A stretch of DNA of 64,000 bases from Haloplanus vescus (GTDB lineage: Archaea > Halobacteriota > Halobacteria > Halobacteriales > Haloferacaceae). Below the pieces are notes generated by a model that saw only the letters and a list, made by a program, of their open reading frames with translations, made no database searches and was not told the origin of the DNA. This document shows positions 45,753 to 64,000 of the stretch, in pieces (the first letter of the stretch is position 1; every line of letters starts with the position of its first letter). The DNA lies in the NCBI RefSeq assembly GCF_900107665.1, contig NZ_FNQT01000004.1, positions 62,001 through 126,000 of the forward strand, in the 5' to 3' direction. Made by a program: the position numbers and the translations under genes.

Positions 45753-48334
45753 TGTTCACCCTCTAAGAGAAGGTCACGATTGTCTACCCGTCGGTAGTTC
45801 GTCTCGTCGGCAAGCCCCTCGATGGGGAATTCCTCGTCGCCAGTGCGGCGTCGGTTGAGTTCCGTCAGTCGCTCGTCGACAAATGATTCGAACGCATCGA
45901 GATCACGTTTGAAGAATGCACCCTTCTGTCGGTCGACGATTGCTCGCATCACCTGCTTGCTCCCCGTCGTCACGTACTTGTACTCGCCAATCTCCGCTTG
46001 GAGTCGATCGATCATCGTCTGTCCGAACTCGGACTCGATGAGTTCGTCGCTATCGGTCGTCTCGACGAGCTGCGCAGCATCGAAGAGCGCGGCGTACGTC
46101 TGATAGTCAATCTTCGAGAGGATCTTTTGGCACTTCTGTGCCCCCTCCTCACGGAGATACTCGAAGAACTCCTCACGTTGCACGTGCTCGGTGAGCGATT
46201 CAGGGTAGTATGTTACAGTCGTCAACGCGTCGTCGATGTCGGCGTCGCCGGCGATCACGTCGTCGACGAGTTCGGTGACGTAGAAGAAGGTGAACGAGAG
46301 TTGGTCACCCGGACGTTGTGATCGCCAATAGGTGAGATAGAGTGCTGCCTGAAAGTCAGGCTCGTCTGTCGGCTCGTCAATCGCGGCGTGTTTGACGATT
46401 GAGGTGGCGCTGCTCTCGCTGCCACTCTTGTAGTCGAGCAGTTCTTGCTGCGACTGAACGAGGTCGATCATTCCGTTGATGCCCAATTCTTCGTCAGTAA
46501 ACCGACGTTCAGTCACGGGAGAGTCGATATCGCGACCGAAGTGAGCAGCGACGGCATTATCACCCCCACTGGACGGCGTCAGAAACGCGCCCTCGGTCGG
46601 CTGGTTCGCGTCAAGATATGAGACGATCGTTTCGAGGCTCGCACGATATTCAGTGCGCCGGGTCCGTTCGTCGACGGAGCGAACCAGCGGACGGACGTCC
46701 TCGAGCATAAGTTCGACGACCTCCGAGAGTGTCTCTTCGTCAATCTCGTCCGGATGGTTGACGTAGAACTCCGCGAAGTCGTGGAGCAGGTTGCCCTCGG
46801 TGAGATACGCCTTCTCCGGACCGTCGACTATCCGGCTGAAGTAGTAGTCTCGCGGTGAGTTCACGTAGGTGTTGAGACTCGACTTGCTGATCGTCTCGAC
46901 CGGGTCGGAAGTCACACCGACAGGTTCGTTCTCGAATCCGTCACCAGCTCGTGCTGCGGTTTCGATCTGATGACTTGTCGAAGGTAGATCGGAGAAGCGG
47001 TCGTACTCCGGTTCGAGGAGCTCTTCGAAGTACAGGCACGGCGTAACGGGTGATCCGCCGGTCGCATCTTGGACGAGATAGTGTTGCTGGCTGCCGCTCT
47101 GCAACAGCAGCTGGAAGCTCTTAAGATTCCGTGTGAACTGGGCGTCCTGGTCGACCCACGGACGACGTGGGGCCGAGTGGGTCCAGCGGTCGTCAAGCCC
47201 TAGGTAGAAGACAACCTCACGACCCACGTACGACGCTGATTTCGCATCGGCGAGCAAGACACCCTCGTTCTCTCGATCGACCGGCACCTCGTAGGTCTGG
47301 AGATAGAACGACAAATCGTCGAGGCGCGCTTCCGTGATGGATTCGTCCGCGATGGTGAGTGTCTCCAGTTCCTCCCGGAAGGCATCCAGCGTGTCGCCGG
47401 CGTGGCGTTCAAACACTGAAAGGGCATCCGAGAACGTGTACTCTTGGACATCGTGGCAGAAGTCGATCAGCCACTTGAGATCTCCATCGTCAAGCTCGTG
47501 CAGTCGCTTGTTTGTGTCAGCGTCGACGACGTCACAATCGAAGACCGTCAACAGCGACCGGATCTCGCTTATTCGGGTATCAGTCCCCCGGTGGGCGGTC
47601 CGGAGGAGGTGGAGGAACAACCGGTGTTCGCTGCGATCTGTGAATCCCGGCCCGCCGAAAAACGGGATATCGGCCGCTTCGAGCGCGGACTCGATAAGCG
47701 GTGAGTATTCGCTTTCCTGATCGAGAACAATCCCGACGTTATCAGCGTTCTCGTCATCGACGGAATCGACGACGGTCTCGACGATCGCAGTCGGCGAATC
47801 GTGTATACGGAACGGCGGGAGCTCGAACTCGGTATCAGCGAAGAGGTCGACCGTGTCGTACTCGGCAGGCAGATACGCTCGTTCGAGCTGGGTGAGCATC
47901 GCCGGCTCGACGACGACCACGTCGAAATTCGGATCGATGGTCTCGTTTGTGAGCTTCATCGAGGCGGTCTCGAGTTTCGCGATTCGCTCCACAGCTCGTT
48001 CGGTGGCATCGTCGACGTAGCCGTCGTACTCGAAGATAGCGTCGTGTGACCCTCGGTGTTCCCAACACTGGAGGATATTCCCAACCGCGTATGCACAGCG
48101 CTTCCAGGAGAGGTCCTCGTGATCAAGCATACCGAGGAAAGCGAGACGGTCCTCGGACTCTTGGCGTCGACCAACTGCAAGTCGGCGTGGTGGGATCGCG
48201 AACGGACCGAGATGCGAACGATCGAGGTGGCGGTTGAGAGCACTTGCAAGCGGCCCATCCGGAGTGATCACCCGGTCGTACGATCGAACCTCTTCGTAGA
48301 GTTGGCCTGGCGATTTGGCGCGGGGAAATGGCAC
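45749..48334 (-). CDS. AddB-like PD-(D/E)XK nuclease
   Basis: An 861-residue protein forming a pair with AddA. The N-terminal region resembles an inactivated helicase (AddB type) without a clear Walker A. The nuclease core is INGMIDLVQSQQELLDYKSG near 620-640, with a QAALYLTYWRSQ helix following, as in RecB-family nucleases. In AddAB, AddB scans for recombination hotspots and cuts the second strand. It starts at 48334; a large inverted repeat (48404-48446) lies upstream. Confidence 0.85.
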   Translation of the reverse strand: MPFPRAKSPGQLYEEVRSYDRVITPDGPLASALNRHLDRSHLGPFAIPPRRLAVGRRQESEDRLAFLGMLDHEDLSWKRCAYAVGNILQCWEHRGSHDAIFEYDGYVDDATERAVERIAKLETASMKLTNETIDPNFDVVVVEPAMLTQLERAYLPAEYDTVDLFADTEFELPPFRIHDSPTAIVETVVDSVDDENADNVGIVLDQESEYSPLIESALEAADIPFFGGPGFTDRSEHRLFLHLLRTAHRGTDTRISEIRSLLTVFDCDVVDADTNKRLHELDDGDLKWLIDFCHDVQEYTFSDALSVFERHAGDTLDAFREELETLTIADESITEARLDDLSFYLQTYEVPVDRENEGVLLADAKSASYVGREVVFYLGLDDRWTHSAPRRPWVDQDAQFTRNLKSFQLLLQSGSQQHYLVQDATGGSPVTPCLYFEELLEPEYDRFSDLPSTSHQIETAARAGDGFENEPVGVTSDPVETISKSSLNTYVNSPRDYYFSRIVDGPEKAYLTEGNLLHDFAEFYVNHPDEIDEETLSEVVELMLEDVRPLVRSVDERTRRTEYRASLETIVSYLDANQPTEGAFLTPSSGGDNAVAAHFGRDIDSPVTERRFTDEELGINGMIDLVQSQQELLDYKSGSESSATSIVKHAAIDEPTDEPDFQAALYLTYWRSQRPGDQLSFTFFYVTELVDDVIAGDADIDDALTTVTYYPESLTEHVQREEFFEYLREEGAQKCQKILSKIDYQTYAALFDAAQLVETTDSDELIESEFGQTMIDRLQAEIGEYKYVTTGSKQVMRAIVDRQKGAFFKRDLDAFESFVDERLTELNRRRTGDEEFPIEGLADETNYRRVDNRDLLLEGEQ

Positions 48335-48403
48335 GCTCAGAGACAGTCAGTGATGTCGGTTAAATCTTTGTCAGTTAGATCAGGCTTTGGAAATGTACAG
48401 CTT

Positions 48404-48446
48404 CAGAACGACGGTCGTGAGTCCTATAGCCCGGACCGTCGTTCTG
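48404..48446. repeat. 13-bp perfect inverted repeat upstream of addB-like gene
   Basis: CAGAACGACGGTC (48404-48416) and GACCGTCGTTCTG (48434-48446) are exact inverted arms with a 17-bp spacer. It lies 42 bp after the stop of the 258-aa gene and 70 bp before the AddB start. It could be a transcription-termination hairpin for the first or an operator for the second. Confidence 0.65.
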
Positions 48447-48487
48447 TATGAATGGAAGATTCAAACCTCACAAACACCGCTCACAAC

Positions 48488-49264
48488 TCACGGCGGGTAC
48501 TTGAATGTCTCTTCGACCCGTCGTTGCAACTTGTGATCTGAAGACTCCGACGAGAATCGGAATTCGCGGATATCCTCCAGCGTCACCCCACCAGTAATCT
48601 CACCTGGCTTCCCCATCACCTGATTAAAATACACGTTCTCGTTCACGTCCGTATACAGCACGTGTAGCTGGAAGGAAACATATCGAATCCCGGCGTCATA
48701 CAGTCGCTGAGTTGTCTCAAACACTGGCGACCGGACGTACTCGGCTCGACCCTCTTCGCCGTGGAACACCTCCTCAAACTCAACTTGCGTGCTGAACTCG
48801 ACACGGCCTTCATTTGGGCTTAACACCCCGCCCTCCCGTGAGTTATTTTCAAACTGGTCTCCCTCGGTCCTGTTCAACGGGAAGTATCTTGGGAGGATCT
48901 CGAATCCGTCACCGGCGGGAGTGAGGAAACACGCGTCCTCTATGTCGATAGGCGTCCCTTCTCCGGGGTCTGGATCGTAACTGACGACGAGTGTGGGCCG
49001 AACATACAGGTTCTGAGCGACGCCTTCACCGAGATTTTCCAGCTGGATCGTGAGAATATCGAACGTGCTGCCTCGGCCGCTTTTCGACTGGGTCTCCCTC
49101 CTTCGACTCTTCACGACTGGTTTGCTTTGCCGCTCGATAGTGTCTTGCAGGTCCTCGGTCGGAACCTCAGTATTTGACTGCCAGAAGACGAAGTTCTCGA
49201 CGAAAACGGCCTTCACTGCAGTAAAGCTGAATTGAGGGATATAGTCACGGAAACGTTCGAACAT
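48488..49264 (-). CDS. protein of unknown function
   Basis: A 258-residue soluble protein, probably beta-rich after residue 65 (STFDILTIQLENLGEG, LYVRPTLVVSYDP). A short hydrophobic amphipathic segment lies near 10-28. There is no signal peptide or recognised domain. It is divergent from the 49324 gene and upstream of the addBA operon on the same strand, separated by the inverted repeat at 48404. Confidence 0.62.
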   Translation of the reverse strand: MFERFRDYIPQFSFTAVKAVFVENFVFWQSNTEVPTEDLQDTIERQSKPVVKSRRRETQSKSGRGSTFDILTIQLENLGEGVAQNLYVRPTLVVSYDPDPGEGTPIDIEDACFLTPAGDGFEILPRYFPLNRTEGDQFENNSREGGVLSPNEGRVEFSTQVEFEEVFHGEEGRAEYVRSPVFETTQRLYDAGIRYVSFQLHVLYTDVNENVYFNQVMGKPGEITGGVTLEDIREFRFSSESSDHKLQRRVEETFKYPP

Positions 49265-49323
49265 ACTGGTTAACCGTCACTCGTTGATAATAAATGGGTG
49301 GTCGGGGTACTCGAAGACAGGGA

Positions 49324-49575
49324 ATGGAAGACATCCCGCAACCCTCACCGGACCCGTACGACCCGGACGACACAGTGCGCGTGTATCTCGACCCGGATGA
49401 CCCGGACAGTCGCTTCCACGGCGTCCGCTGCGAGGTCGTAGACCGGTTCGCCGACGACTTAGACCGAGAGAGCGGGCGCGACTCGGACCGGTTCACGTAC
49501 CGTGTACGCGCCGTTGAGGACGGTGGCGTACTTCCCGTCGAATTTCGGCACGCAGATCTCGTCCCCGAAGAGTAG
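49324..49575 (+). CDS. small acidic protein of unknown function
   Basis: An 83-residue Asp-rich protein (PDPYDPDDTVRVYLDPDDPD) ending in a compact beta region (FTYRVRAVEDGGVLPVEFRH). The ATG at 49324 is preferred over one at 49294. Its stop is 12 bp from the stop of the convergent restriction-modification gene. An accessory role for that system is possible but has no direct support. Confidence 0.6.
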   Translation: MEDIPQPSPDPYDPDDTVRVYLDPDDPDSRFHGVRCEVVDRFADDLDRESGRDSDRFTYRVRAVEDGGVLPVEFRHADLVPEE

Positions 49576-49587
49576 CCGCGTCGCCGT

Positions 49588-52500
49588 CTAATCGTCCGCT
49601 TCGGCCGCTTCCGCGGCGTCCACGTTCAACGTCACGTCCTGCTTCCGCTCCGGTGCCGGCGGCTTCCCATCAGGGTACAGCTCCTGCATCGTTTGATGAT
49701 ACGCGACGAGACCCATCTGGTTAGAGATATGGACCATGTCGCTTCCGTCGAGACCGTACAAGTCCTGTAGTGCTTGCTCGATCTTCCAGTCCGTTTCTCC
49801 ACCTAACTCCCCGTCACCGGCCAGCAACTCCTCGACACACTCTGCGATTTTCTCTGCCGTCTCCACGCCCTCCTCTGTCGTTAGCTTCGCAACAGGGATC
49901 GGGAGCGACCGGATTTTCGTCTGTGTCAGCTTAGCGAATGCCTGCGCAGCATCAATTTCACCGAACCGTTTGAACACGTAGTAATGGAATACGCGGGAGT
50001 TCAACGCGCCTAACAGGAACTTGTGGTACGTTTCCGTGTTCAATCCGTCTGGGATATTCTCCGGGACGGTCCACTTCCCGTCATACTCCTCGTCATCAGG
50101 GTCAATGTCAACGTACCAGTTCCGCATTTCACTCCGGTCGTCCCGGATTTTGTAGATGTAGACGCTTTGCGGGCAGTACACGGGATCACCGTGGTACGCG
50201 ACGGACAGACCTACACCGGCTTGCCTGATGAACACTTTATCCCCGCGATAGATCTCCTCGTCCTTGTACTGAATTCCGTTGTACCCGGTGTCTAACCCTT
50301 TCAGCGTCAAGTGATCGTACCGTTCCCCGAAGGAATCCCCGTCCATGTACGTCACATCACCGTCTGCCGGGTCGTCGGAAACGATGTACTCTTCCCCGAG
50401 CTTGTTCTGGTACTCGAATTCAGTCTCACAGTCGGGGCACGTTTTCTTCGTGTCCGGGTCACGTCCTCGCGGCGGCGGCATCCACACTCCGCATGCGGGG
50501 CACTGAATGATGTGCCCGGCTTTGTTAAGCTCAACTCCGCGGTGTGATTCACATAACGCACCGAGCGGAATTGAGTTCGACTGCATCGTCCCGAGTATCT
50601 CGTCGTCTGTAGTGTAGCGGAACGGCTCGATCTCCCCGGACTCGATGCACCGGTCCTGCGGGATATCGAATGAATACGCCGACTCCAGCTGTGACAGGCT
50701 CAACTCACCTTCTATCGCCGCTCGCCGGTCATCGTCTACGAGCGTCATGCTACGGAACGTATTCCCGTCGCTCGGATCCTCGTTCCGGACTTGCAGCGTC
50801 GTGGTGTTCATCCGGATTTCTGGACCGAACCAGTCGGCTCCGAGCATATGGTACCGTTCGAACGTGTAGTTCCCCAGTAAGTGCTCGCGGACACCGGAGT
50901 GGTCCGGATTCAACAGGGTTTGCGGGAGTACGAACGCTAACCGTCCGTCGTCGTTCAAGTATTTCAGTGCGACGAGAATGAACAGTTCGTACGTGTCGAG
51001 ATTATCGACGTCGAATTCGTCGCCGAACTCGTCACTCAACCACTCCGCGGCTTCGGGACTCACCTGCCCGCCCCACGGCGGATTCCCGATAATCAGGTCG
51101 AATTCGCCGAATCCGGGCGTTTCATCCTCGTCTTCGAATTGGATTTCACCGTCGAGTGCGTCTTGCGACGCGAAATTCCCAGTAAGCATACCGAGCGACG
51201 TATTCTTCCGCGCGCTGCGTAGCCACACGGAGAGTTTCGAGATTTCAATCGCTTCCTGCAGCAGGTCGTTACCATGCAGCGATTTGTCGAGAATGTCGAT
51301 TTCAGTCTGCTCGTACGATTCAAGTGAAACTTGGTAGTGACCGTCGGATCCGGTCGCTCGTGCGGATCGGAGCTTTTCGTGCACCCGTCGCGCCTCACGA
51401 CTCAAGTGGTTGAAACAAGAAACCAGGAACGCACCGGACCCGCACGCGATGTCCGCGATTCGGATGTTGACAATTTCCTTCAGGTAGGCTTCAAGGAATT
51501 CCTTGTCGGGGTTCTCCATCTCCATCTCCCCGTTCTCAAGGTCTAACTCGTCCCGAATCTTCGTGCGCTTGTCCTGTAGAAGGTCCTGTATCGCGTGCTC
51601 GGCGACGTACTCGGTGAGACCCTCCCGCGTGAAGTACAGGCCATAGTCCCCTCGGTCACCGCTGAACGGGTTCGATTCGCCTTCTGCGAGGTTCGCTCGC
51701 ACCTGCTCGATATCACCCACGCTCTCCTCGAAGATACGGCCGAGAACGTGCTCATTCAGGTCTTGGTGGAAGTCGTACTCGTAGAACCCGTACACGCCGT
51801 TAATCGTCGTATCCCCGATCTCGTATTCCCGAGTGAACAACTCGTCCGGGAGGGTCACTGACTGCAGCACTTCGTCCTCCTCGAACAACCCGCCGTCGTA
51901 CCCGAAGATATCGTACGGGTACTCGTCCGGGCTCCCAGTGTCGATGACTCTGAACATATCCTGAATGAGCGGGTAGATTTTCCGGTCGTCCAGCGTCGGG
52001 AGTGTCGCGCCGGTGCTGACGACGTCCTCAAGCAGGTCGTCCGGGAGTAGTCCGGACGGGTGGTCTGAGAAGAAGCAAATTACGAGACCGCGGTGTATCA
52101 GGGTTTGAGCGGCTTGAATCGCGGCGAGTTGCCCGTCGCTGGATTCGCCGAGCTCCGGGGCTTCGTTGATAATTTCCTCGTACACGTCCTCCACAGCTTC
52201 CCGGTAGAATTGGTAGAAGTCCTCGGTGAGTTCCAACCGTTCGGACAGGTTCTGCGCCATGAGGTCCTCGATGTCCGAATCGGCATCCTCACCGATTAGG
52301 AACCGTCGGTGCATAATGAAGTAGAATTCCCAGAACGTCTCGGTCAACTCACCGTCGGCGTCAAGGAACTCGTCGATCTCCCACTCCTCGTAATGGTCGA
52401 TACTGCCGTGGTGGTACAACCTGACTACTTCCATGTTCGACGCGACAACCCACCGAACGGACAGACCGTTCGTGATCGCGTACTCGAATGCCTGCTCCAC

Positions 52501-52902
52501 CGGTGATTTGAGGCGCGATGGATCGACTTTATCGAGGTCCGTCCCCGGGTCTTTCAGCTCTCCGACGACTTTCCTGACGTCTTCAGTGAGATCCCCGTCG
52601 TCCTGTTCGAAGTGACCGAGTAGAACGTCGGGGAACCCGTCACCGCCTTCGGAGAGTGATTCAGGGAGGAGCTGGAATTCACCGGCGCTGCCGCGCGGTC
52701 GAGTGTATCCAAGTACATCGCTGAAAATGTCACTTACGAACGATTGCTGCAGGTTGCGCTCAGTGAGTGACGTGCTCGTTCCCGTCCAGCCTTCCACGGC
52801 ATCAACAATGTCGTCGGTATCGACTGGGCGTTCGACTTCCTGTTGCTGTAAGTACTCATCCACTAGGTCCGCGTCGAAGAGAGAGTGCTGATTAGTCGGC
52901 AA
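49588..52902 (-). CDS. type IIG-like restriction-modification enzyme
   Basis: A 1,104-residue single-chain enzyme. The N-terminal nuclease has FPDVLLG near 90-96 and VVGELKDP near 112-119, a PD...ELK core. The N6-adenine methylase has motif [12 protein letters not shown] near 482 and motif IV GNPPWGG near 605. The target-recognition half contains a four-cysteine zinc ribbon ([15 protein letters not shown]) near 800-835. This matches type IIG/IIL enzymes that methylate and cut at one recognition site. The start is TTG at 52902, with a TATA-like CCTGTATAAG 17-26 bp upstream. A BREX PglX-like methylase is less likely because a nuclease motif is present and no BREX genes are nearby. Confidence 0.87.
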
Positions 52903-52918
52903 GGATATTGGGTTCTTT

Positions 52919-52928
52919 CTTATACAGG
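52919..52928 (-). promoter_or_regulatory. TATA-like element of the type IIG gene
   Basis: CCTGTATAAG on the minus strand lies 17-26 bp before the TTG start. Such close spacing implies a leaderless transcript and supports the TTG start at 52902. Confidence 0.4.
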
Positions 52929-53195
52929 ATACTTTGTTCTATCCCTTAACCAGTCACGGCGCCATTGTCCATCCCCTTGGCCGCTATTAAAAAATTTGTC
53001 GTGTTGGGTAAATTACTGGAATTTGAGGTAGGGTATTGAGACACCTCTGACATGACCGTGTCGCTCTCGACAATGAAACAATTTTCGCCGCCCCTGAACC
53101 GTAGTTCAACCGACCGGAACACTGAATTCCCGTTGCTATCGTATCGGACACGTCTCCCCCGTCGTCCTGTCCCCGGACGGAGAGTACGATTTTGA

Positions 53196-53345
53196 ATGGA
53201 CTCGAGATACAAAGCCGAAGCACAGCTACTGTATGATGTCGTGGACTGGTTTGCTGAAAAGTACAATTCCGGCAACCAGATGCTCGTCACGTACAAGACA
53301 GCGACTATGATATCGCGGTTTTTTGAAGCACTGGGGTATGATTGA
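53196..53345 (+). CDS. possible 49-aa protein
   Basis: An ATG frame of 49 codons begins MDSRYKAEAQLLYDVVDWFAE and ends SRFFEALGYD. It has helical amphipathic content and plausible codon use but no recognised family. It is the only coding candidate in the 632-bp gap between the restriction enzyme and the first cdc6 gene. The opposite-strand frame there looks random. The call is tentative. Confidence 0.35.
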   Translation: MDSRYKAEAQLLYDVVDWFAEKYNSGNQMLVTYKTATMISRFFEALGYD

Positions 53346-53387
53346 CGTGGCATTGCCTTGCCAAACGCCACATTACGTTCGACCTCA

Positions 53388-53486
53388 GGTGTTTCCGGAA
53401 ATGCTTGGTTTCCTCAAAACGAACCGCATCACAGCGTGGTCAAACTCGGATTGAACTGAGATTGAATAGTACTTTCCGGAAACACC
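53388..53486. repeat. 14-bp inverted repeat upstream of cdc6 no. 1
   Basis: GGTGTTTCCGGAAA (53388-53401) is repeated in inverted orientation as TTTCCGGAAACACC (53473-53486), with 71 bp between. Each copy contains the palindrome TTTCCGGAAA. The pair lies 49-147 bp before the initiator gene. Inverted pairs of initiator-binding sites next to orc1/cdc6 are typical of haloarchaeal origins. It could serve as an origin element or for autoregulation. Confidence 0.65.
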
Positions 53487-53494
53487 CCGGTCAC

Positions 53495-53504
53495 GTTTTT
53501 AGTA
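53495..53504 (+). promoter_or_regulatory. TATA box of cdc6 no. 1
   Basis: GTTTTTAGTA lies 31-40 bp before the ATG at 53535, directly after the inverted initiator-like repeat, so a protein bound to the repeat could block it. Confidence 0.45.
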
Positions 53505-53534
53505 CTAGCCAGAAAACCAGTCTATCAATCAAAG

Positions 53535-54563
53535 ATGATCCGCGATGCTCGCGTTCTCCGCGCCGGGTTCGTCCCTCGGGAAGTTGAGCATCGCGACGCC
53601 GAAGTTAACCACCTCTCCAGCGTTCTTGAGCCCATCACGAACGGGGAACCCGCCGACACAGCCATCGTCACTGGACCCAGCGGCGCCGGCAAGACCTGCA
53701 TCTCGCAGTTCGTCACCGAACGACTCCGGGAAGAGGTCCTCGACGTCGAGACCACCTACGTCAACTGCTGGCGCAACTACACGCGGTTCCGCACGCTCTA
53801 CCAGATCCTCGACGACCTCGGCGCGACCATCGACATCCACCGACAATCGACGCCGCACGACGAACTCGTCGACCGCCTCCAGCAGCACGACGGCCCGCGA
53901 ACCGTCGTCATTCTCGACGAGGTCGACCAACTGGAGGACCCCAGCGTCATCTACGACCTCCACAGCCTCCCGCAGTTTGCGATCATCTGCATCGCGAACA
54001 AGGAGGAGGAGCTGTTCAGCCGCGTCGACGACCGGCTCGTGAGTCGGCTCCGTTCGAGTGAACACGTCCGGATGGACAAGTACCACGACGAGCAGCTGTA
54101 CGACATTCTGAGTGCGCGGGCGAAGTGGGGCCTCGATGAGGACGTCATCACCGACGACCAGCTCTACCGGATCGCCGACGCGGCCGCCGGCGACGCCCGC
54201 CTCGCAATCGGCATCCTCCGAACAGCCGCCGGCAAGGCCGATCGTGAGAACCACGAGCGCATCACCGACGATATTCTCCTGGACGCCGCCGAGGATGCTC
54301 GGGCCCAGATCAAGCAGAAGAGCCTCGACTCGCTCACGCCGCACCAGCGCGTCGTCTACGACATCGTTCGCGAGCACGGCCCGGTCGGGCCGAGCGAGAT
54401 TCACGAGCGCTATACCGAGGACGTCGATGACCCACGGACGAAGCGGACTATCCGCACGTATCTCTCGAAGATGGAGCAGTACAACCTCCTCGAGGCGGAA
54501 GGCACGAGTCGGGATCGAGAGTACTCGCTCGTCGATTCGGCAGCTGCATCGCCGATGCAGTGA
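53535..54563 (+). CDS. Orc1/Cdc6-family initiator no. 1
   Basis: A 342-residue AAA+ protein. Walker A GPSGAGKT lies near 47-54, Walker B VVILDEVDQL near 120-129, the sensor 1 region AIICIANKEEEL near 147, and an arginine-bearing RLVSRLRSSE near 165. A C-terminal winged helix (about 265-335) begins SLTPHQRVVYDIV. It lacks the acidic N-terminal extension seen in the second initiator. Orc1/Cdc6 proteins load the MCM helicase at origins, and some act as transcription regulators of damage genes. It is convergent with the SRAP gene (18 bp between stops). Confidence 0.93.
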   Translation: MIRDARVLRAGFVPREVEHRDAEVNHLSSVLEPITNGEPADTAIVTGPSGAGKTCISQFVTERLREEVLDVETTYVNCWRNYTRFRTLYQILDDLGATIDIHRQSTPHDELVDRLQQHDGPRTVVILDEVDQLEDPSVIYDLHSLPQFAIICIANKEEELFSRVDDRLVSRLRSSEHVRMDKYHDEQLYDILSARAKWGLDEDVITDDQLYRIADAAAGDARLAIGILRTAAGKADRENHERITDDILLDAAEDARAQIKQKSLDSLTPHQRVVYDIVREHGPVGPSEIHERYTEDVDDPRTKRTIRTYLSKMEQYNLLEAEGTSRDREYSLVDSAAASPMQ

Positions 54564-54581
54564 CCGTGACGCCGTCAGCTA

Positions 54582-55268
54582 TCAGGAACTGAACTCGCCG
54601 AGGCCCGATTGCTCGTGGTCCAGCGGCTCGATGACCTGGGGATCGTCGTTGCCAGGGTTGTTGACTCGCGTCGAGATCTCATAAGCGTCTAGGTCGTCCT
54701 TCGGGTACGGCTGGCACAGTTCCTTGCGGGTGTCCGGGTCTGCGGCGAGCCAGTCGGACTCGGCGTCCTGCGGGAGGACGACCGGCATCCGGTCGTGGAT
54801 TGAGTTCATCAGGTCGTTCGGCTCCGTCGTGAGAATCGTGACGCACGAGATCGTCTCGTCGTCGCCCTCCCAGACGTCCCAGAGCCCAGCCATCGCGAAT
54901 GCGGGGTCGTCCTCCCGGTAAATCCGGTAGGGCTGCTTCGACCCGCCGTTCGGCGATTTCCATTCGTAGAACCCTGACGAGGGGACGAGGCAGGGACGTG
55001 ATTTCCACGCCCGCTCGAAGACGCGTTTCTCGTCGGCAGTCTCGGAGCGAGCGTTGATGATGCCCTCCTCGGGCTCGTCCGCCCAGAACGGAATCAACCC
55101 CCAGTGGTAGGCGTCAATCTCGTCGGAGGCCTCGTTCGTGATGATGTGGAGGTCGTCGCCAGGCGCGATGTTGTATCGGGGTGTGTACCCGCCGTCCGCG
55201 ACGACCTCGGCATCGAAGCGGGCCTCGAGGTCTGCTTGGTCGATGAAGAGCGAGTTTCGGCCACACAT
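54582..55268 (-). CDS. SRAP/HMCES (YedK) DNA-crosslink protein
   Basis: A 228-residue SOS-response-associated peptidase domain. The invariant start MCGR places Cys2 at the mature N-terminus. YNIAPGDDL near 33, the NARSET segment near 72, PSSGFYEWK near 92 and SIHDRMPVVL near 145 complete the active-site pattern. The protein forms a stable thiazolidine crosslink to abasic sites in single-stranded DNA. The start at 55268 is fixed by the Cys2 requirement, and a longer frame to 55412 is rejected. An inverted repeat of the TTAACCAACA family lies 69 bp upstream, in what was a divergent promoter region before an IS insertion. Confidence 0.95.
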   Translation of the reverse strand: MCGRNSLFIDQADLEARFDAEVVADGGYTPRYNIAPGDDLHIITNEASDEIDAYHWGLIPFWADEPEEGIINARSETADEKRVFERAWKSRPCLVPSSGFYEWKSPNGGSKQPYRIYREDDPAFAMAGLWDVWEGDDETISCVTILTTEPNDLMNSIHDRMPVVLPQDAESDWLAADPDTRKELCQPYPKDDLDAYEISTRVNNPGNDDPQVIEPLDHEQSGLGEFSS

Positions 55269-55336
55269 ACCGAGGAGTTCGGAGGGTAGCATCTTCAACG
55301 TAATCGCACAGGAACTTCGCGTCAGCGCCGATGTTC

Positions 55337-55378
55337 TTAACCAACAAACAGCCCCGGAAGATCCGGTGTGTTGGTTAA
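55337..55378. repeat. long inverted repeat, family copy 2
   Basis: TTAACCAACA (55337-55346) and TGTTGGTTAA (55369-55378) are perfect arms around a 22-bp spacer. It lies upstream of the SRAP gene. If the IS between 55536 and about 57100 is removed in thought, it falls between the divergent SRAP gene and the RecA-like/PolB operon and could serve both promoters. Confidence 0.85.
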
Positions 55379-55540
55379 CTGAGCAGCAGCGGAAATAGTC
55401 AATCGTCCGCAAAACACGACGACCGAGATTGGGCTGCCATCTATCTCGTGGCTTTCCTGAAACGCGGAAGCGCCACGGCGAAGCGTATCGGGACTGTGGA
55501 CAACTAGTAAACTCGCCCAGATCGCGCCCATTGACATCCT

Positions 55541-55560
55541 CCCATCCTTAGGGGAATGGG
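55541..55560. ncRNA. hairpin at IS right end, possible omega-RNA 3' part
   Basis: CCCATCCTTAGGGGAATGGG forms a short hairpin 23 bp beyond the tnpB stop. Right-end hairpins of IS605 elements are recognition structures, and the omega-RNA of TnpB is transcribed across the tnpB 3' end and this right end. The guide would be the flanking sequence below about 55536. The RNA itself is inferred from the family. Confidence 0.4.
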
Positions 55561-55582
55561 ATTCCTCCGGTGGGGATATTGG

Positions 55583-56899
55583 CTATGCCGCACCCACGGA
55601 GGCAAGTTTCCCCGTGCGAGTACTCCGGTTTGTGCGCTCCTCGTTGGGACTGGCCCTCTCGGGAGAGCGTGAGAACTCCGACCAAATGTGGTCGTCCCAC
55701 TTGAGGCGCACAGGCCGTGCCATCGACCCGACGTCCAGATTTACGCCAGCCTGTCGTTCGAGGAATGTCCGTGACGCACCGAGGTCGGCGTGCCCCTCGT
55801 AGCCACACGAACAGCGGAACACGTTGCCGTCCCGCTCCGTCTTCTCTCGTTCGCCACACACTGGACACTCCGCCGTCGTGTATGCTTCTGAGCGGACTTC
55901 GACCGTGATACCGTACTCCTCGGCGGTCGTGGCGAGACGATCGATGAACGAGCGATACGCCCAGAACTGGTGGGTTTTCTCGTTCACTTCCGCGCTCCAG
56001 TAGTCCACCAGCACGTCCGTAAGGTCGCCGACGTACACCGTATCGACACCTTCGTCGTATAGTCGCTCGATCAAATTCCGCACGAGAGCGTCTTGGGCGT
56101 GGTCGCGGCGGCGCGTTCGCTTGCGGTACAGGGATCGAATCCGCTGACTGCTGTTTCGGCCCTCTTGGAGTTTCGATTGGAGCCTCGCGATTTCTTCGGT
56201 GGTTTCACGGAAGCGGGCGAACAGGTCGCGTCCCTCGTAGAGATACTGCTGGCCGGTGGTGGTGGTACAAGCGACGAGGTTGTTCGCGCCTACATCCAGA
56301 GCAGCCGATTCGTCGGCTAGTGGTGAATCCTGTCGAGAATCCGGGACAGTGACAGGCTGAATGGCTCTGAACGTGTCGTCGATCTCGTCGAAGTACAGTT
56401 CCAATCGGCCCTGTTCGCCGTCCCACTTGGGAGCGCCGCAGACTTCGAGCCGTAGGCGGTCGTAGTAGCCAAGTCCGTACTCATCTTTCAGGTCTTGGCC
56501 GACCGGGATTTCGAGGCGACTCCGTTCACCAGTTTCGATGGTGTAGGAGTCATTACGGATGTACGTCCGCAACTCTCTACCGGCCTCCTCGTTGCCCCAG
56601 TAACCGGGCGGGGCGGCGTCCTCGCCATCTTCGCAGGCGGCGAAGAACGACCGCCACGCCTCGCTGTTCTTACGGATGACTTGTTGGGCAGTAGCGGAGC
56701 CGAGGACACCGACGTACTGTTTTCGGTAGTCGGCAGTATCCCATACGGAGTCGCCGTCGAAGAAGTTCTGACGGCGCTCGTAGTTCAGTTCGTTCCACAG
56801 GCTGGCGGAGGCGTCCAACAACTCGCGGAGCAGTTGCTCATCCTGCTCGGAGAGCGGTCGCACCGCGAACGTATTGGTTCGCCTCACGACAACAGACAT
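55583..56899 (-). CDS. tnpB: TnpB with altered RuvC-II motif
   Basis: A 438-residue TnpB protein. RuvC-I is [12 protein letters not shown] near 200-210 (Asp kept). The RuvC-II position, normally ...EDL, reads VYVGDLTD near 286, so Gly replaces the catalytic Glu. RuvC-III is GHADLGAS near 370 (Asp kept). A zinc finger lies between ([17 protein letters not shown]). TnpB is an RNA-guided DNA nuclease that helps retain IS605 elements. Loss of the Glu may weaken or abolish cleavage, although a neighbouring acid could compensate. The start at 56899 ([11 protein letters not shown]) is the usual family start; a GTG-initiated frame to 56968 would run into the divergent small gene. Confidence 0.92.
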
Positions 56900-56937
56900 T
56901 TGTTTCTGAATGTCTAAATGTCTTTTGGACACAAACG

Positions 56938-57081
56938 ATGCGACCGAACATCGACATCTCGCACACACTGAATGGGCGGGTGAAAGACTACGCCGAACAA
57001 GAGGACAAGCACCTCGAAGAAGCCTATCAAGAGATTATCGAAGCCGGTCTAGAGGCGGTGGAAAATCCAGACAAGCCGTAG
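56938..57081 (+). CDS. 47-aa RHH-like protein of the TnpB element
   Basis: A 47-residue protein reading [20 protein letters not shown], then a charged helix and [13 protein letters not shown]. The strand followed by two helices fits a ribbon-helix-helix regulator. It is divergent from tnpB with only 38 bp between starts, so it could repress the tnpB promoter. Confidence 0.6.
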
Positions 57082-57277
57082 CACCTGGATTGTGGGGCCG
57101 TGTTGTCGCTCAGACCCAGCCTGAAAGGATGGGCCCACTCGCTACGAACCATCCGAACCAAGGTCATTCTGGAAGCCTTCTCGGAAACCTTCGGACGGTC
57201 GCCAAAATCCAGCGCCTGAGTCCGATTTACCGCATTACTCAGTCATTCCTTGGAAATGCGGAAGCGACACGCCGCGG

Positions 57278-57286
57278 CTTATCTGG
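57278..57286 (+). promoter_or_regulatory. TATA-like element of the RecA-like/PolB operon
   Basis: CTTATCTGG lies 22-30 bp before the ATG at 57308, which fits a leaderless start. The rest of the 57082-57307 gap shows no gene and is probably the part of the divergent control region left on this side of the IS. Confidence 0.45.
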
Positions 57287-57307
57287 TACGTGGCCATCTA
57301 TTGGAGT

Positions 57308-58255
57308 ATGCCCGACCGCTCCACATCGACGTCGAACCGATTGGCGGTAGACCAGCCAACACGGAGCGCTGACCGCAACCAGAATCTGGCTAATCAAGCC
57401 GACCCCGCGACGGACGGAATGCTGCTTCCCTCCCTTGAGGACGGTATAACTCTCCTTGATGTCGAAGGTGATCGGGGTGTACCGATTCTTCAGTCATTGG
57501 TACTCGATCATCTCCTCTTACATGACGGGCCCGCTTTCTGGATTGACGCAAACGGCCATGCGACGACGGCCACGCTGACGCAGATAGCCCCCAGTCAACG
57601 GTTGCTCAACCGAATCCACGTGGCACGCGGATTTACCGCCTACCAGCACTACGGTGCCAGCTGTGATCTCCCGACGGCAGTGAACAAGTCGATCCAGATG
57701 TCCACCACCGACGCCGGCCCGGCCGGTCGACAACCGAGTCGCGACGAGGACACGTCGTCCCACACGCCCGCTCTCATCGTCGCGCCGGCCGTCGACGCCC
57801 AGTACCGCGCCGACGATACCCTCGGCGAGACTCACGCGAAAACCCTCCAGGCCCGAACCCTCGCCCGGCTAGTGACCTACGCCGAGGGGTATGACATCCC
57901 GGTGCTCGTTACGCGAAACGAACGAAACGAATTCACCGAATCAATCGCGACGGTCGCCGACCACCACCTGGAGTGCGAGCAAACCCGGATGGGGCCGCGG
58001 GTCGTCGGCGAGGACTTCGAGACGCTCGTCTATCCCGTCGACGACGGCGCGTACTACCAGACGACGTTCGCGTACTGGCGGCAGCTGCTCGCGGCACGCG
58101 CCACGCAGGTCGGCGTGGAACCGACGACGCCGGCGCCGTCGACGCCGACTCCCAAAGGCGTCGGGACGGGCGTCACAGCTGACGGTGAGACGGTGTCGGC
58201 TACCGCGAATCCCCTGCTCGATGCGTGGACCGCGACCGGAACAGGAGGTCGATAG
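57308..58255 (+). CDS. RecA-fold protein without P-loop (mutasome-type partner)
   Basis: A 315-residue protein with the outline of a RadA/RecA core. DGPAFWIDANGHATTATL near 75-92 sits where Walker A should be but lacks the GxxxxGK[ST] signature. ARGFTAYQHYGASC is near 110. PALIVAPAVDAQYRADD near 155-172 stands in for Walker B, and DIPVLVTRNERNEF follows near 195. It is probably ATP-inactive. The C-terminal 40 residues are a Pro/Thr-rich tail. It is followed 2 bp later by a small gene and then a PolB. Inactive RecA paralogues next to a translesion polymerase parallel the bacterial ImuA-ImuB-DnaE2 mutasome, and that comparison is inferred. An upstream GTG at 57290 is possible. Confidence 0.8.
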   Translation: MPDRSTSTSNRLAVDQPTRSADRNQNLANQADPATDGMLLPSLEDGITLLDVEGDRGVPILQSLVLDHLLLHDGPAFWIDANGHATTATLTQIAPSQRLLNRIHVARGFTAYQHYGASCDLPTAVNKSIQMSTTDAGPAGRQPSRDEDTSSHTPALIVAPAVDAQYRADDTLGETHAKTLQARTLARLVTYAEGYDIPVLVTRNERNEFTESIATVADHHLECEQTRMGPRVVGEDFETLVYPVDDGAYYQTTFAYWRQLLAARATQVGVEPTTPAPSTPTPKGVGTGVTADGETVSATANPLLDAWTATGTGGR

Positions 58256-58257
58256 CG

Positions 58258-58563
58258 ATGGGGCGCACAAACCCGACGTACCGAGATGCGCTGCGGGCCA
58301 TCGAAGAGCGCTGGACGGAGTTCCGCCGGGCACTGCGGCGTCGCGACCAGCCGCGCTTCGACCGACTATTCGAGTACGCCCGCGAGCACGCCGACGCGAG
58401 CGGGCTGTTGAACCACCAGAACCCGCTGCTGCCGGCGCTACTCAGCATCGATCTCGAACAGGAGGCCCGCCTCGACGACCACGAGGAACGCCTCGAGGAG
58501 CTCGAAGCCGCGGTCGCAGCACGCGATGACCAGGAGAGTGCCCCACCGGACGCGAACCCGTGA
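58258..58563 (+). CDS. coiled-coil small protein between RecA-like and PolB genes
   Basis: A 101-residue protein with an Arg-rich N-terminal helical half (RDALRAIEERWTEFRRALRR) and a Glu/Leu coiled coil near 70-92 (LDDHEERLEELEAAVAAR). It starts 2 bp after the RecA-like stop and ends 2 bp before the PolB ATG. A scaffold linking the RecA-like protein and the polymerase, in the manner of a mutasome adaptor, is the most economical idea. I recognise no domain. Confidence 0.7.
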   Translation: MGRTNPTYRDALRAIEERWTEFRRALRRRDQPRFDRLFEYAREHADASGLLNHQNPLLPALLSIDLEQEARLDDHEERLEELEAAVAARDDQESAPPDANP

Positions 58564-58565
58564 CG

Positions 58566-60731
58566 ATGTCGTTCAGTATCGACTTTCTGGACGACGGCCG
58601 CGTCCTGGAGTGGGAGGCAACTGCCGACAGCGCCGTGGCGACCGAGCGCCAAGACTACACCCCACGCTTCTACGTCGCCGCTCGCGACCCTGATGCCGAC
58701 CTCGACCTCACGACACTCCAGTCGGTGTACGACCAGCACCCGGACGTCGTCGCGACCGAGATGGTTGCGCGACGCCCCGGCTTTCGACGAGACGAGGAGG
58801 CCGTTCTCGCAGTCGACGTTGCCCACATCGATCGCGTCACTCCACTCGCCCGGCAGGCACGCCAGCTGTCGGACTATCCAATCGGGGATCTCGCCTGTTT
58901 CAACGTCGACTTCTCGCGAGAGTTCCGGTACTGTCTGGAGACCGGCGCCGATCCGACGCCGGCGAGCGAGCTCTCGACGCTCCGTCTCAGCGTCCCGGTG
59001 ACCGAAACGAGCAACGACGTCTATGGGGAACTGTCTGTCGCCGGCGACACCGTCACCGGCTCGCCGACGGATATCCTGACCGCCGTCCAGGAGGTGCTCG
59101 AAGCACACGATCCGGACGTCCTGGTCTGCTCAACCAGCGAGATCGTCCCGACGCTGTACAAGATGGCGACGGACGCCGGCGTCGGCGACTTCTCGCTGAG
59201 TCGGTGGCCGGACGTCGACTACCAGCAGCTTGCGAGCCGGTCGACGTACTCGAGCTACGGTCGCGTCGGTCACTCACCGGCGCGGTACAACGTGCCCGGA
59301 CGGGCGATCATCGACGAGTCGAACACGTTCTTCTACGGGGAGACGAACCTCGAGGGCGTCATCGACCTCGTGTCGCGCTCGAAAAAGCCCGTCCAGGAGC
59401 TCGCGTGGGCGTCAATCGGGAACGTGCTGACGGCGATCCAGATCTGCGAGGCCCACGACCGCGGTGTCCTCGTCCCGTGGAACTCCTGGCGCCACGAGTT
59501 CTTCAAGCCGATGGGGACGCTCCACGACGCCGACCGTGGCGGCTTCATCTTCGCGCCCGAGGTCGGGCTTCACGAGAACGTCCACGAACTCGACTTCTCC
59601 TCGTTGTACCCGAACATCATCTGTACGCGGAACGTCTCACCGGACGTCATCCGGTGTGACTGCCACAGCGACCGCGACGACGTCCCCGGCCTCGGGTACT
59701 CGATCTGCGACGACCGGGGCTACCTTGTCGACGTGCTACAGCCGATCATCGACGCGCGCGACGAGATCAAGGCGGCCATTCGTCGCGAGAAGGAACGGAA
59801 CAACCCCGACGAGGACCGGCTGGTGGAACTCGAGGGACGGTCGGGAGCGCTGAAGTGGATCCTCGTCGCCTGCTTCGGCTATCAGGGATTCAGCAACGCG
59901 AAGTTCGGCCGCATTGAGTGCCACGAGGCGATTAACGCATTCGCTCGCGAAATTCTGCTGACGGCAAAACAGCAACTGGAAGCCGGCGGCTGGCGGGTCG
60001 TCCACGGCATCGTTGACTCCATCTGGGTGACCCCGGACCCTGACGTCGACGACGAGAACCGCGAAGACCTCAAAGCACTCGCGACGGCAATCACGGAAGA
60101 GGTCGAGATCCGGCTCGAACACGAAGCCCACTACGACTGGGTGGCGTTCGTGCCGCAGCGCGAGAGCGACGCCGGCGCGTTGACGAAGTACTTCGGGAAG
60201 GTCGCCGGCGACGACGATTTCAAGATACGCGGTATCGAAGCCCGGCAGCGCTCAACCCCACCGTTCATCGAGGACGTCCAGCGGGACTGTCTCGAACGGC
60301 TCGGTGCGACTAAATCTCCGGACACCGTACTCGACTGTCTTCAGGACGCGATCAAGCGCCTCCACGCTGGAACGGTGCCGGTCGAGCAGCTCGTCGAACG
60401 GAATCGTGTCTCCAAGCCGCTGGAAGGGTACACGCAGAATACGCAGAACGTGGCGGCGCTGAAGCGGGCTCGGGACCAGGACCTCGCCATCCACCCAGGA
60501 CAGGACATCGAGTACGTGGTCGTCGACGACGAGAAGAGCTCGCGAGAGCGGGTCGCGTTAGCCCACGAAGAGATAGAGTCGTACGATGCGTCGTACTACG
60601 AGACGCAACTCGTCAGAGCTGTCGAGAGTGTGCTGGCACCACTTGGCTGGGATCGGATGGAGATTCAACGCGAGATCGCGGAAACTCGGGAAACGGACTT
60701 GGACGCCTTCACCGAGATTGAGAGTGGTTAA
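58566..60731 (+). CDS. family-B DNA polymerase with degenerate exonuclease domain (PolB2-like)
   Basis: A 721-residue polymerase. Motif A ELDFSSLYPNII near 342-353 and motif B KWILVACFGYQGFSNAKFG near 430 are intact in outline. Motif C reads HGIVDSIWV near 480: the second Asp of the usual DTD is kept and the first is lost. The exonuclease motifs are not recognisable (LRLSVPV where DIE is expected), so no proofreading is expected. Such PolB proteins are linked to translesion synthesis. It is the last gene after the RecA-like and coiled-coil genes. The stop TAA lies inside inverted-repeat copy 3. ATG 58566 is preferred over GTG 58560. Confidence 0.9.
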   Translation: MSFSIDFLDDGRVLEWEATADSAVATERQDYTPRFYVAARDPDADLDLTTLQSVYDQHPDVVATEMVARRPGFRRDEEAVLAVDVAHIDRVTPLARQARQLSDYPIGDLACFNVDFSREFRYCLETGADPTPASELSTLRLSVPVTETSNDVYGELSVAGDTVTGSPTDILTAVQEVLEAHDPDVLVCSTSEIVPTLYKMATDAGVGDFSLSRWPDVDYQQLASRSTYSSYGRVGHSPARYNVPGRAIIDESNTFFYGETNLEGVIDLVSRSKKPVQELAWASIGNVLTAIQICEAHDRGVLVPWNSWRHEFFKPMGTLHDADRGGFIFAPEVGLHENVHELDFSSLYPNIICTRNVSPDVIRCDCHSDRDDVPGLGYSICDDRGYLVDVLQPIIDARDEIKAAIRREKERNNPDEDRLVELEGRSGALKWILVACFGYQGFSNAKFGRIECHEAINAFAREILLTAKQQLEAGGWRVVHGIVDSIWVTPDPDVDDENREDLKALATAITEEVEIRLEHEAHYDWVAFVPQRESDAGALTKYFGKVAGDDDFKIRGIEARQRSTPPFIEDVQRDCLERLGATKSPDTVLDCLQDAIKRLHAGTVPVEQLVERNRVSKPLEGYTQNTQNVAALKRARDQDLAIHPGQDIEYVVVDDEKSSRERVALAHEEIESYDASYYETQLVRAVESVLAPLGWDRMEIQREIAETRETDLDAFTEIESG

Positions 60732-60768
60732 CCAACACTATCGAGGTATCGGGAGGTTTGTTGGTTAA
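60728..60768. repeat. long inverted repeat, family copy 3
   Basis: TTAACCAACA (60728-60737) and TGTTGGTTAA (60759-60768) flank a 21-bp spacer. The left arm supplies the TAA stop of the PolB gene. Copies 2 and 3 therefore bracket the SRAP-IS-RecA-like-PolB block. Confidence 0.85.
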
Positions 60769-60815
60769 TACTGAGTGAAGACACGGAAGGGAGCTGGAGA
60801 GAATACCTCGCCCAC

Positions 60816-60835
60816 ACACCCCTCGTCCAGAGTGA
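60816..60835 (-). repeat. ORB-like repeat, inverted orientation
   Basis: The minus strand reads TCACTCTGGACGAGGGGTGT, identical to the copies at 61217 and 61526 but inverted. It is the outermost left member and faces the direct array, as origin-recognition boxes often do around an unwinding element. Confidence 0.85.
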
Positions 60836-60863
60836 AAACCAATCGGAGAGTGGGGTGAGGTCC

Positions 60864-60880
60864 ACGGGAAACGGGGGTTC
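60864..60880 (+). repeat. GGGAAACGGGGG element
   Basis: ACGGGAAACGGGGGTTC resembles the CGGAAACGTGGGG repeats at 63248, 63321 and 63387, on the other side of the initiator gene. It may be a weaker initiator-binding site. Confidence 0.5.
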
Positions 60881-61216
60881 TTGTGGGGAGAAAGCAACAG
60901 GAATCGCGGAAAGACTGCTTGAGACGGGAGAACACGGAGGAAATGGAACAGCGAACACGAGCAGCGGTTCGAAACCACCCGGACGAATGCCGCCTTCGTC
61001 CTCCTTCTTGTGCTGAATGCACTTGGGGAGTGGTAGGAGGTAGGTAGTAATAAAACCTCTAGGTAATACTATGGAGATTGGTATGTTTAGAGGATCTTCG
61101 ACTGTGTGACGACTGCTGTTCGAGGGATACTCGTCTCACGTCTTGTGATTTCGGTACTTTCCAGCCGACTCGTCGTGTGGTTTCCGCCGGGTCAACCGAG
61201 GGACTCTCGTAGCGTT

Positions 61217-61875
61217 TCACTCTGGACGAGGGGTGTGGGGGTTAGATTTCATCGTCCGCGTATTATGAGACGTTGAAGGAAAATCGTCATTCTGACTATT
61301 CGCCAACCAGCGAACCGGCATCAAAGCCGAAATCGGGATTGGTATCTCCCGATCTCCCTCATCACTCGGAATCAAGATACCCGATCCCGACAGTTCCGAT
61401 TGTACCCTGCTTTGCTTCGGCTGGAGATCTGACCTGTGTCTTCACTCTTGATTGGGGGTGCCGACGAACGCTCGTCAGCATCACTCGAGGTTCACACTTC
61501 ACTCCTGCTCGTCACACCTACGCTTTCACTCTGGACGAGGGGTGTCTGCCGTGCGTCAGACGTCCAGGGTCGATGTGTCCTCTCATAGAAATGATTGATT
61601 ACCAGGTTCGGGAGATACACTCTGGACGGGGGGTGTCGTCTCAACCAAGTACGCTGCTCCCGTATGGAGGGCTATTCACTCTTGACCAGGGGTGTGTCAA
61701 ACCCGCTCCAGTCTGGCGTTTTCACTCTGGATTGGGGGTGCCCGTCTGCGGCGGTAACTCTCGCTCCGAATCCGATTTCACTCGGGACCGACTCGACCCT
61801 TTGTGAGGATGATACGCCAGCGACAAAACATCAGAAGACGACCATAGCCCGATTTACACTCTGGTCGAGGTAGCC
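61217..61875 (+). repeat. ORB-like direct repeat array
   Basis: Six 20-bp copies follow the form TCACTCTKGAYNNGGGGTGY. They start at 61217, 61442, 61526, 61617 (first base A), 61676 and 61722. A degenerate seventh, ACACTCTGGTCGAGGTAGCC, starts at 61856. The copies share CACTCT at one end and a G-run plus TG at the other. Spacing shrinks toward the gene (225, 84, 91, 59, 46 bp). They are interpreted as origin-recognition boxes for the initiator encoded at 61915. The spacers are not unique-length and there are no cas genes, so this is not a CRISPR array. Confidence 0.88.
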
Positions 61876-61914
61876 AAATCATTAAGTAGGTCCCATCCGC
61901 GATATCTGATATTG

Positions 61915-63192: not shown

Positions 63193-63213
63193 CTCCCGTT
63201 TCGGTCGCTGACC

Positions 63214-63233
63214 ACACCCCTGATCACGAGTGT
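63214..63233 (-). repeat. ORB-like repeat right of cdc6 no. 2
   Basis: The minus strand reads ACACTCGTGATCAGGGGTGT, matching the left array in form and inverted relative to it. It lies 22 bp after the initiator stop. Confidence 0.7.
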
Positions 63234-63247
63234 ATCTCTCGATACGT

Positions 63248-63403
63248 CGGAAACGTGGGGTGGGGGATCCGAGGTCGTCTTCTACTCCCAATAATCGACT
63301 TTGGCCGGGTGACGAAACGACGGAAACGTGGGGGGTGTGATCCCCTCGATCGTGGCTGCGTTCCCTCCACCGACCTCCAGTTACGACGGAAACGTGGGGT
63401 GGG
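63248..63403 (+). repeat. CGGAAACGTGGGG repeats right of cdc6 no. 2
   Basis: CGGAAACGTGGGGTGGG occurs at 63248-63264 and 63387-63403, with CGGAAACGTGGGGGGTG at 63321-63337. The 73- and 66-bp steps are near integral helical turns. This is a second repeat type, distinct from the CACTCT boxes, in the 363-bp gap downstream of the initiator. Confidence 0.82.
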
Positions 63404-63446
63404 TATTTTTTCTCCGAGTGTTACCTGTTTGGACTGACCGGACCCA

Positions 63447-63499
63447 TTCACACTGAGGGGTGTGGGGTGGGTTGAACCCATTCACACTCTGGGGGGTGT
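63447..63499 (+). repeat. tandem CATTCACACT...GGGGTGT elements
   Basis: Two direct elements, TTCACACTGAGGGGTGT (63447-63463) and TTCACACTCTGGGGGGTGT (63481-63499), each preceded by ACCCA or CCCCA-like sequence, share the CACT...GGGGTGT frame of the ORB-like boxes. They form the right limit of the origin region. Confidence 0.7.
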
Positions 63500-63555
63500 C
63501 CTCTGCGACGCTACTAATTGCGCTTGACAAACCTCCGGCTACGGTTCACCACCGT

Positions 63556-63879: not shown

Positions 63880-63895
63880 CAGCGGTCGCCTCGTG

Positions 63896-63936
63896 TTAAC
63901 CAACATAACCCGCTAATCCATAGTTTTGTTGGTTAA
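63896..63936. repeat. long inverted repeat, family copy 4
   Basis: TTAACCAACA (63896-63905) and TGTTGGTTAA (63927-63936) flank a 21-bp spacer. It occupies the -18 to -57 region of the 107-aa gene, where a bound protein would overlap the promoter. The remaining bases to 64000 hold no gene I can support. Confidence 0.85.
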
Positions 63937-64000
63937 GTTGGTAATATCAGTCAGTCCTCGCTACCTGTAACATTACTCGCAACTTCTTTATGAATGAATT

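Follow-up and report, generated by a model that had tools for sequence, protein, structure and literature searches.

A conserved candidate operator common to a plasmid-borne cdc6 gene and the PolB2 mutasome genes of haloarchaea

The 64,000-nucleotide stretch of Haloplanus vescus DNA analysed here (the window) carries two cdc6 genes, one of which, cdc6 no. 1, is preceded by a short box and its exact inverse, and the question raised by this locus is whether such boxes belong to a second origin of replication or to an operator of an Orc1/Cdc6-type regulator of neighbouring repair genes, both of which had been suggested in an earlier note on this DNA. The contig concerned (C4; 201,092 bases) consists of a 104,006-bp circle repeated head to tail and assembled almost twice over, and because the repeat units show 0 differences over 21,994 overlapping bases, the replicon of the window is taken to be a plasmid of about 104 kb. 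The repeat joint is crossed by the window at 42006/42007, and owing to the repeat each plasmid site on C4 appears twice in the genome-wide site lists. The box pair and cdc6 no. 1 are thus located on a 104-kb haloarchaeal plasmid, in a genome of 2.78 Mb.

The pair itself was found as the earlier note described it: the left box, GGTGTTTCCGGAAA, occupies positions 53388-53401 (+ strand; dyad 53392-53401) and the right box, TTTCCGGAAACACC, which is its exact reverse complement, positions 53473-53486 (- strand; dyad 53473-53482), leaving a gap of 71 bp between the two and a further 48 bp between the right box and the ATG of cdc6 no. 1. What is probably the TATA box of the cdc6 no. 1 promoter (TTTTTA, 53496-53501, + strand) lies 12 bp downstream of GGAAAC. 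It was also correct that these boxes are unrelated to those at cdc6 no. 2, the latter being G-string boxes (CACTCTGGACGAGGGGTG and variants, 8 copies). Within the window this is the only exact inverted 14-mer pair with a gap of 20-120 bp, but at least one such pair also occurred in 5 of 60 simulated windows (first-order Markov), which makes the exact pair by itself weak evidence that could be due to chance. Its 14-bp inverse symmetry, although exact in the window, proved to be a local feature, exact in only one of the 80 related loci considered below (L060), and additionally in L146.

These 80 loci, retained from many haloarchaeal genera, encode relatives of Cdc6 no. 1 that are 86-100% identical to it; over the order as a whole, a relative (E <= 1e-60) was found in 127 of 195 genomes. 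The right box (TTTCCGGAAA) is present with at most two mismatches in all 80 loci and with at most one in 71 of them, the chance of the latter being about 0.0004 per locus, and in 57 of the 80 it stands at exactly -62 from the ATG, the position that it has in the window. Of the 70 non-redundant loci, 54 also have an extra upstream dyad with at most one mismatch (0.004 expected per locus by chance) at a variable distance, the left box of the window being an auxiliary copy of which the location varies among relatives; strict looping between the left and the right box was ruled out by this variable spacing. It is conservation, and not the exact pair, that marks the right box as real and important, and we therefore treat it as the conserved candidate operator.

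The relatives sampled for promoter comparison are a subset of the matches, namely 36 that are at least 81% identical and 20 drawn from the 50-60% identity group (group B). Group A counts refer to 35 loci plus the window (in two of them, L151 and L172, the contig ends within the locus), a locus with a partial cdc6 gene (L174, residues 31-342) is excluded from all counts, and part of the gene calls of the relatives come from a simple gene caller, so that starts may be wrong. The box just upstream of TATA in group B is a direct repeat of GGAA: 19 of the 20 loci fit, the other (L193) having GGCA, with TTCTGGAAnTTCCGGAAAC and TATCGGAACTATCGGAAAT as the forms seen in different subgroups. From the second half-site to TATA the distance is 12-14 bp in the cdc6 promoters of group A and 10-12 bp in most of those of group B, and a GGAA direct repeat is found at the cdc6 promoter in 5 of 9 relatives near 40% identity.

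Downstream of cdc6 no. 1, three genes follow one another on the + strand: iRadA (57308-58255), encoding a 315-aa relative of RadA/Rad51 without the GK[ST] P-loop; PPB2 (58258-58563), encoding a small protein with the N-terminus MGRT; and PolB2 (58560-60731), encoding a family B polymerase (NF004418, 1436 bits) with a degraded motif C (GIVDSI), disrupted catalytic motifs being usual in the PolB2 group. The Rad51 Pfam match was obtained for 10 of 16 members of the iRadA family, the window copy not being among them, and a profile search with the family matched PDB RadA at 3.9e-8; GK[ST] is absent from the window iRadA, which agrees with an inactive-ATPase signature, and the predicted iRadA fold (mean pLDDT 30) was not used. 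The MGRT start is present in 31 of 39 PPB2 members, including the window copy, and corresponds to the arm known from published accounts of PPB2. The order of 315-aa protein, MGRT protein and family B polymerase on one strand is kept in both identity groups, and iRadA is found downstream of cdc6 in 28 of the 36 loci of group A and in 14 of the 20 of group B, with cdc6 and the three genes in close succession in several of the latter. By these sequence features the three-gene unit is the iRadA-PPB2-PolB2 translesion mutasome of PMC11791011, which reports that the neighbourhood of the archaeal PolB2 mutasome is enriched for orc1/cdc6 and SRAP, an association observed earlier for arORC2 in PMC4104785.

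The earlier note had suggested looking for the box near other genes. Exact copies of TTTCCGGAAA are absent from the rest of the 2.78-Mb genome; a box of the same type does, however, stand in the iRadA promoter, where TTCCTTGGAAATGCGGAAGC (57246-57265, + strand) lies 12 bp upstream of CTTAT (57278-57282), and this box and TTTCCGGAAAC are candidate target sequences for Orc9 and Cdc6 no. 1. In the genome of the window the iRadA-type pattern has just two sites, one in front of iRadA and one at 55453, the latter a second copy and possibly a relic (TTTCCTGAAACGCGGAAGC, 55453-55471, + strand), and two narrow patterns have sites only at cdc6 no. 1 and iRadA. A TnpB-type gene (55583-56968) lies between the two iRadA-type boxes, as if inserted in or near the iRadA promoter. 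Group A iRadA promoters mostly have TTTCCTGAAACGCGGAAGC-N12-TATA at -62, and those of group B have a GGAA repeat of the same kind as the cdc6 promoter. Since the same box type occurs at the same place before iRadA-PPB2-PolB2, one regulator can set both promoters.

This sharing was evaluated with a scoring matrix built from 19 of the 20 group B cdc6 boxes (L193, with GGCA, omitted), and 836 other genes served as the background, whose 99th percentile is exceeded by 10 of 14 group B iRadA promoters (p = 2e-8). In group A the iRadA box is of a variant kind to which this matrix gives low scores, 0 of 28 promoters exceeding the 99th percentile and 3 the 95th (p = 1.2e-5 overall). Among group A iRadA promoters, GGAARC-N12-TATA was counted in about 22 of 27, a figure that is approximate because the non-matching promoters are not deduplicated; of the 14 iRadA promoters of group B, no more than 4 fit the strict form of the TATA pattern. 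When 12 genomes were scanned blindly with the pattern, 19 matches were obtained, against one for the reversed pattern: 10 belong to promoters of cdc6 no. 1 and 5 to iRadA genes with an intact start, 1 falls at a decayed-looking iRadA start (G142), and 3 are unassigned. Two of the iRadA genes with a box are unlinked to cdc6, being on another contig (G102) or about 200 kb away (G073), and so the sharing of the box between promoters is not due to linkage alone. Moreover, the half-sites of the cdc6 and iRadA promoters covary by genome (p = 0.0005, with near-duplicates removed, kinship ignored and the half-sites hand-picked from every group B locus with iRadA but L199, 13 of 14 in all), and the GGCA variant is found in the cdc6 and iRadA promoters of one genome alike.

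Over the 195 genomes, cdc6 no. 1 and iRadA occur together in 101, cdc6 no. 1 alone in 26, iRadA alone in 12 and neither in 56, counts that ignore kinship. Where no cdc6 no. 1 was detected in the assembly, the box is absent from 8 of 11 iRadA promoters and present in 3, and where a cdc6 relative is present it was found in 6 of 9 and is missing from 3. At the same place, 9 of the 11 box-less promoters (L218, L220-L223, L225, L227-L229) have, by eye, a CTTYCACTTTCACC-like repeat, which may represent a second class of operator at iRadA promoters; the genomes concerned either lack cdc6 no. 1 or have only a relative with 40% identity. An exact search for CTTYCACTTTCACC in 11 genomes gave 6 matches, 4 of them at iRadA, and because the reversed control gave 7, this motif is specific by its position and not by its count.

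The candidate regulator, Cdc6 no. 1 (53535-54563, + strand), is a 342-aa protein of the Orc1/Cdc6 family, to which the damage regulators of the Orc1-2 type belong. It exceeds 300 aa and has Pfam matches to AAA+ and the Cdc6 lid, with none to Cdc6_C, and its C-terminal part is predicted to be folded. The AlphaFold model (mean pLDDT 84) has DNA-bound archaeal ORC1 (2v1u, 2qby) as its nearest Foldseek neighbours, the match spanning the whole chain, and model and match together indicate a winged-helix part.

As regards the surroundings of cdc6 no. 1, a helicase gene and a type IIG-like restriction-methylation gene lie upstream (42903-52902). In related plasmids (L101-L112) differing cassettes are found at this side, by name often related to defence (BREX-5, DUF1156/DUF499, TIR/DUF262, AbiE), such names occurring upstream in 10 of 12 annotated plasmid regions, the exceptions being L108 and L110. 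A role of Cdc6 no. 1 as a regulator of defence was dropped, because these upstream genes vary while the box tracks the downstream mutasome. The SRAP gene (Pfam PF02586; 54582-55292, - strand) was likewise ruled out as a member of the regulon, no box being enriched in SRAP promoters. A dispersed inverted repeat, TTAACCAACA-N21/22-TGTTGGTTAA, occurs in the window at 19178-19218, 55337-55378, 60728-60768 and 63896-63936, with 8 copies on the 104-kb circle and 5 on contig C5, while the remaining contigs have none and the reversed control gave 0; its arms are identical and its spacer is not conserved, and it is perhaps a partition, recombinase or regulator site. An Rfam scan of positions 50000-64000 gave no match.

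If the boxes before cdc6 no. 1 were a second replication origin, they would act as minimal inverted ORBs flanking an AT-richer stretch, with binding of Cdc6 no. 1 leading to helicase loading. Inverted repeats do adjoin a cdc6 gene here, the DNA between the boxes has 55% AT against a window average of about 41% (from GC values), and the Orc fold as modelled is nearest to DNA-bound archaeal ORC1. However, ORB-like elements harbouring a G-string are what PMC3528665 looked for near cdc6 genes, and the boxes of cdc6 no. 1 contain no G-string, whereas eight G-string ORB-type boxes are found on the same plasmid at 60817-63232, around cdc6 no. 2 (61912-63192), and form the canonical candidate origin. 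The near-fixed spacing of the box to TATA and the occurrence of the same box type at iRadA promoters, even unlinked ones, not beside an origin-type array, likewise argue against an origin. Furthermore, Table 1 of PMC3528665 gives origin-associated cdc6 genes as 0 of 1 on pNRC100 and 1 of 2 on pNG600; the one on pNRC100 is the orc9 gene of Halobacterium NRC-1 (a published deletion primer falls in its promoter), a family member that has TTTCCGGAAA at -64 in its promoter (VNG_RS12560) and that could be deleted (5 of 20 colonies). Because of the G-string array elsewhere, the entries of that table and the deletion of orc9, an operator is favoured, and the second origin suggested in the earlier note appears quite improbable. 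The GC skew minimum, at circle position 17,744, is nearer to cdc6 no. 2, with an amplitude within the shuffled range that decides nothing.

The comparisons that indicate a shared operator do not by themselves name its binder, and another transcription factor might read the box, with Cdc6 no. 1 only being regulated through it or working with the mutasome in replication; the three iRadA promoters that have the box in assemblies in which no cdc6 no. 1 was found would fit this explanation. We nevertheless hold it to be rather unlikely, given that cdc6 no. 1 and iRadA co-occur across genomes, that the box is present in cdc6 promoters down to 40% identity, as autoregulation predicts, and that the haloarchaeal ORB-like element given in section 7 of PMC3528665 has a core similar to GGAAAC. 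The boxes could also do no more than mark where plasmids recombine and swap their upstream cassettes, in keeping with the upstream genes that differ from plasmid to plasmid and with the blastn matches that in many plasmids begin at query positions 173-175, corresponding to the edge of the right box (window 53472-53474); such a boundary would leave both the box at unlinked iRadA promoters and the near-fixed TATA spacing unexplained, and is very improbable.

We consider it likely that the boxes are instead operators of a small dedicated regulon, autoregulated and common to the mutasome, for which Cdc6 no. 1 would be the most likely regulator, and the putative operator is best read as an archaeal analogue of the SOS box. 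The right box lies just upstream of the expected BRE and the probable TATA of cdc6 no. 1, with the left box as an auxiliary site, and Cdc6 no. 1 would contact GGAAAC-type half-sites through its winged helix and its AAA+ part and regulate, after DNA damage, both its own expression and that of the PolB2 translesion mutasome. Activation with positive autoregulation is preferred to repression, since about 12 bp lie between the end of the box and TATA and the box covers neither TATA nor the start site. Position of the box, together with the precedent of Orc1-2 and dpo2 in Saccharolobus, leads us to infer that Cdc6 no. 1 binds there and, with damage as the signal, may activate both itself and the mutasome. 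Of the earlier proposal that an Orc1/Cdc6 regulator acts on the neighbouring repair genes, the part concerning cdc6 no. 1 and iRadA-PPB2-PolB2 is retained, the promoter motif common to the candidate regulator gene and the PolB2 unit having been recognised by comparing sequences only, and the part concerning SRAP is not. The group A box variant, the exceptions among iRadA promoters, the 26 of 127 cdc6-bearing genomes without iRadA, the position of SRAP outside the regulon and the three unassigned pattern matches all count against this reading. Going further, and with somewhat less than even confidence, one may envisage an SOS-like haloarchaeal switch in which an initiator paralogue serves as a one-component damage regulator, reads GGAAR(C) and controls both its own gene and the error-prone PolB2 mutasome in trans, the whole spreading with plasmids as a portable mutator cassette, other iRadA operons having the CTTYCACTTTCACC-type operator and therefore another regulator.

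The neighbourhood of cdc6 and polB2 is already in print. In contrast, no description of the box or of a haloarchaeal PolB2 operator was found in the open-licence literature (subscription papers lying outside it): the available text of PMC11791011 contains the word 'promoter' at 0 occurrences, that of the UV microarray paper PMC1224876 makes no mention of the gene terms looked for, and that of the silver-stress paper PMC10694973 contains nothing relevant. Because the box is short and specific and a candidate regulator can be named, the proposal is directly testable in Halobacterium or Haloferax. If true, it would mean that Orc1/Cdc6 proteins act as damage regulators in Euryarchaeota as well as in Crenarchaeota, suggest a reason for the many non-essential orc/cdc6 genes in haloarchaea and caution against naming every cdc6-adjacent repeat an origin.

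Among known systems, the origins adjacent to haloarchaeal orc/cdc6 genes (PMC3528665) likewise have inverted repeats beside orc/cdc6 and a CGGAAAC core, but here there is no G-string, the spacing to TATA is near-fixed and the box is also found at a non-cdc6 promoter. The published PolB2 mutasome operon (PMC11791011 and PMC4104785) has the same three genes in the same order with orc1/cdc6 and SRAP nearby, and to these accounts the operator is added here; in the same two sources lexA adjoins bacterial polB2. The closest parallel for the proposed regulation is the Sulfolobus/Saccharolobus Orc1-2 damage response, in which, according to PMC10470591, Orc1-2 acts via a promoter motif and the dpo2 genes are up 21-26 fold with the DNA-damaging agent NQO: both involve an Orc1/Cdc6 paralogue (here as candidate regulator), a promoter motif and PolB2 in the regulon. 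Unlike that response, the regulon here would be small and mostly local (cdc6 and the mutasome) and often plasmid-borne. Its box is a GGAA repeat or dyad.

Bacteria offer further parallels in their LexA-controlled mutasomes and in plasmid-borne mutagenesis operons, among them mucAB and rumAB. The haloarchaeal arrangement would be like these in placing an autoregulated regulator and an error-prone polymerase unit, often plasmid-borne, on one operator, and would differ from them in having as its candidate regulator, in place of LexA, a paralogue of the AAA+ initiators that is probably an activator.
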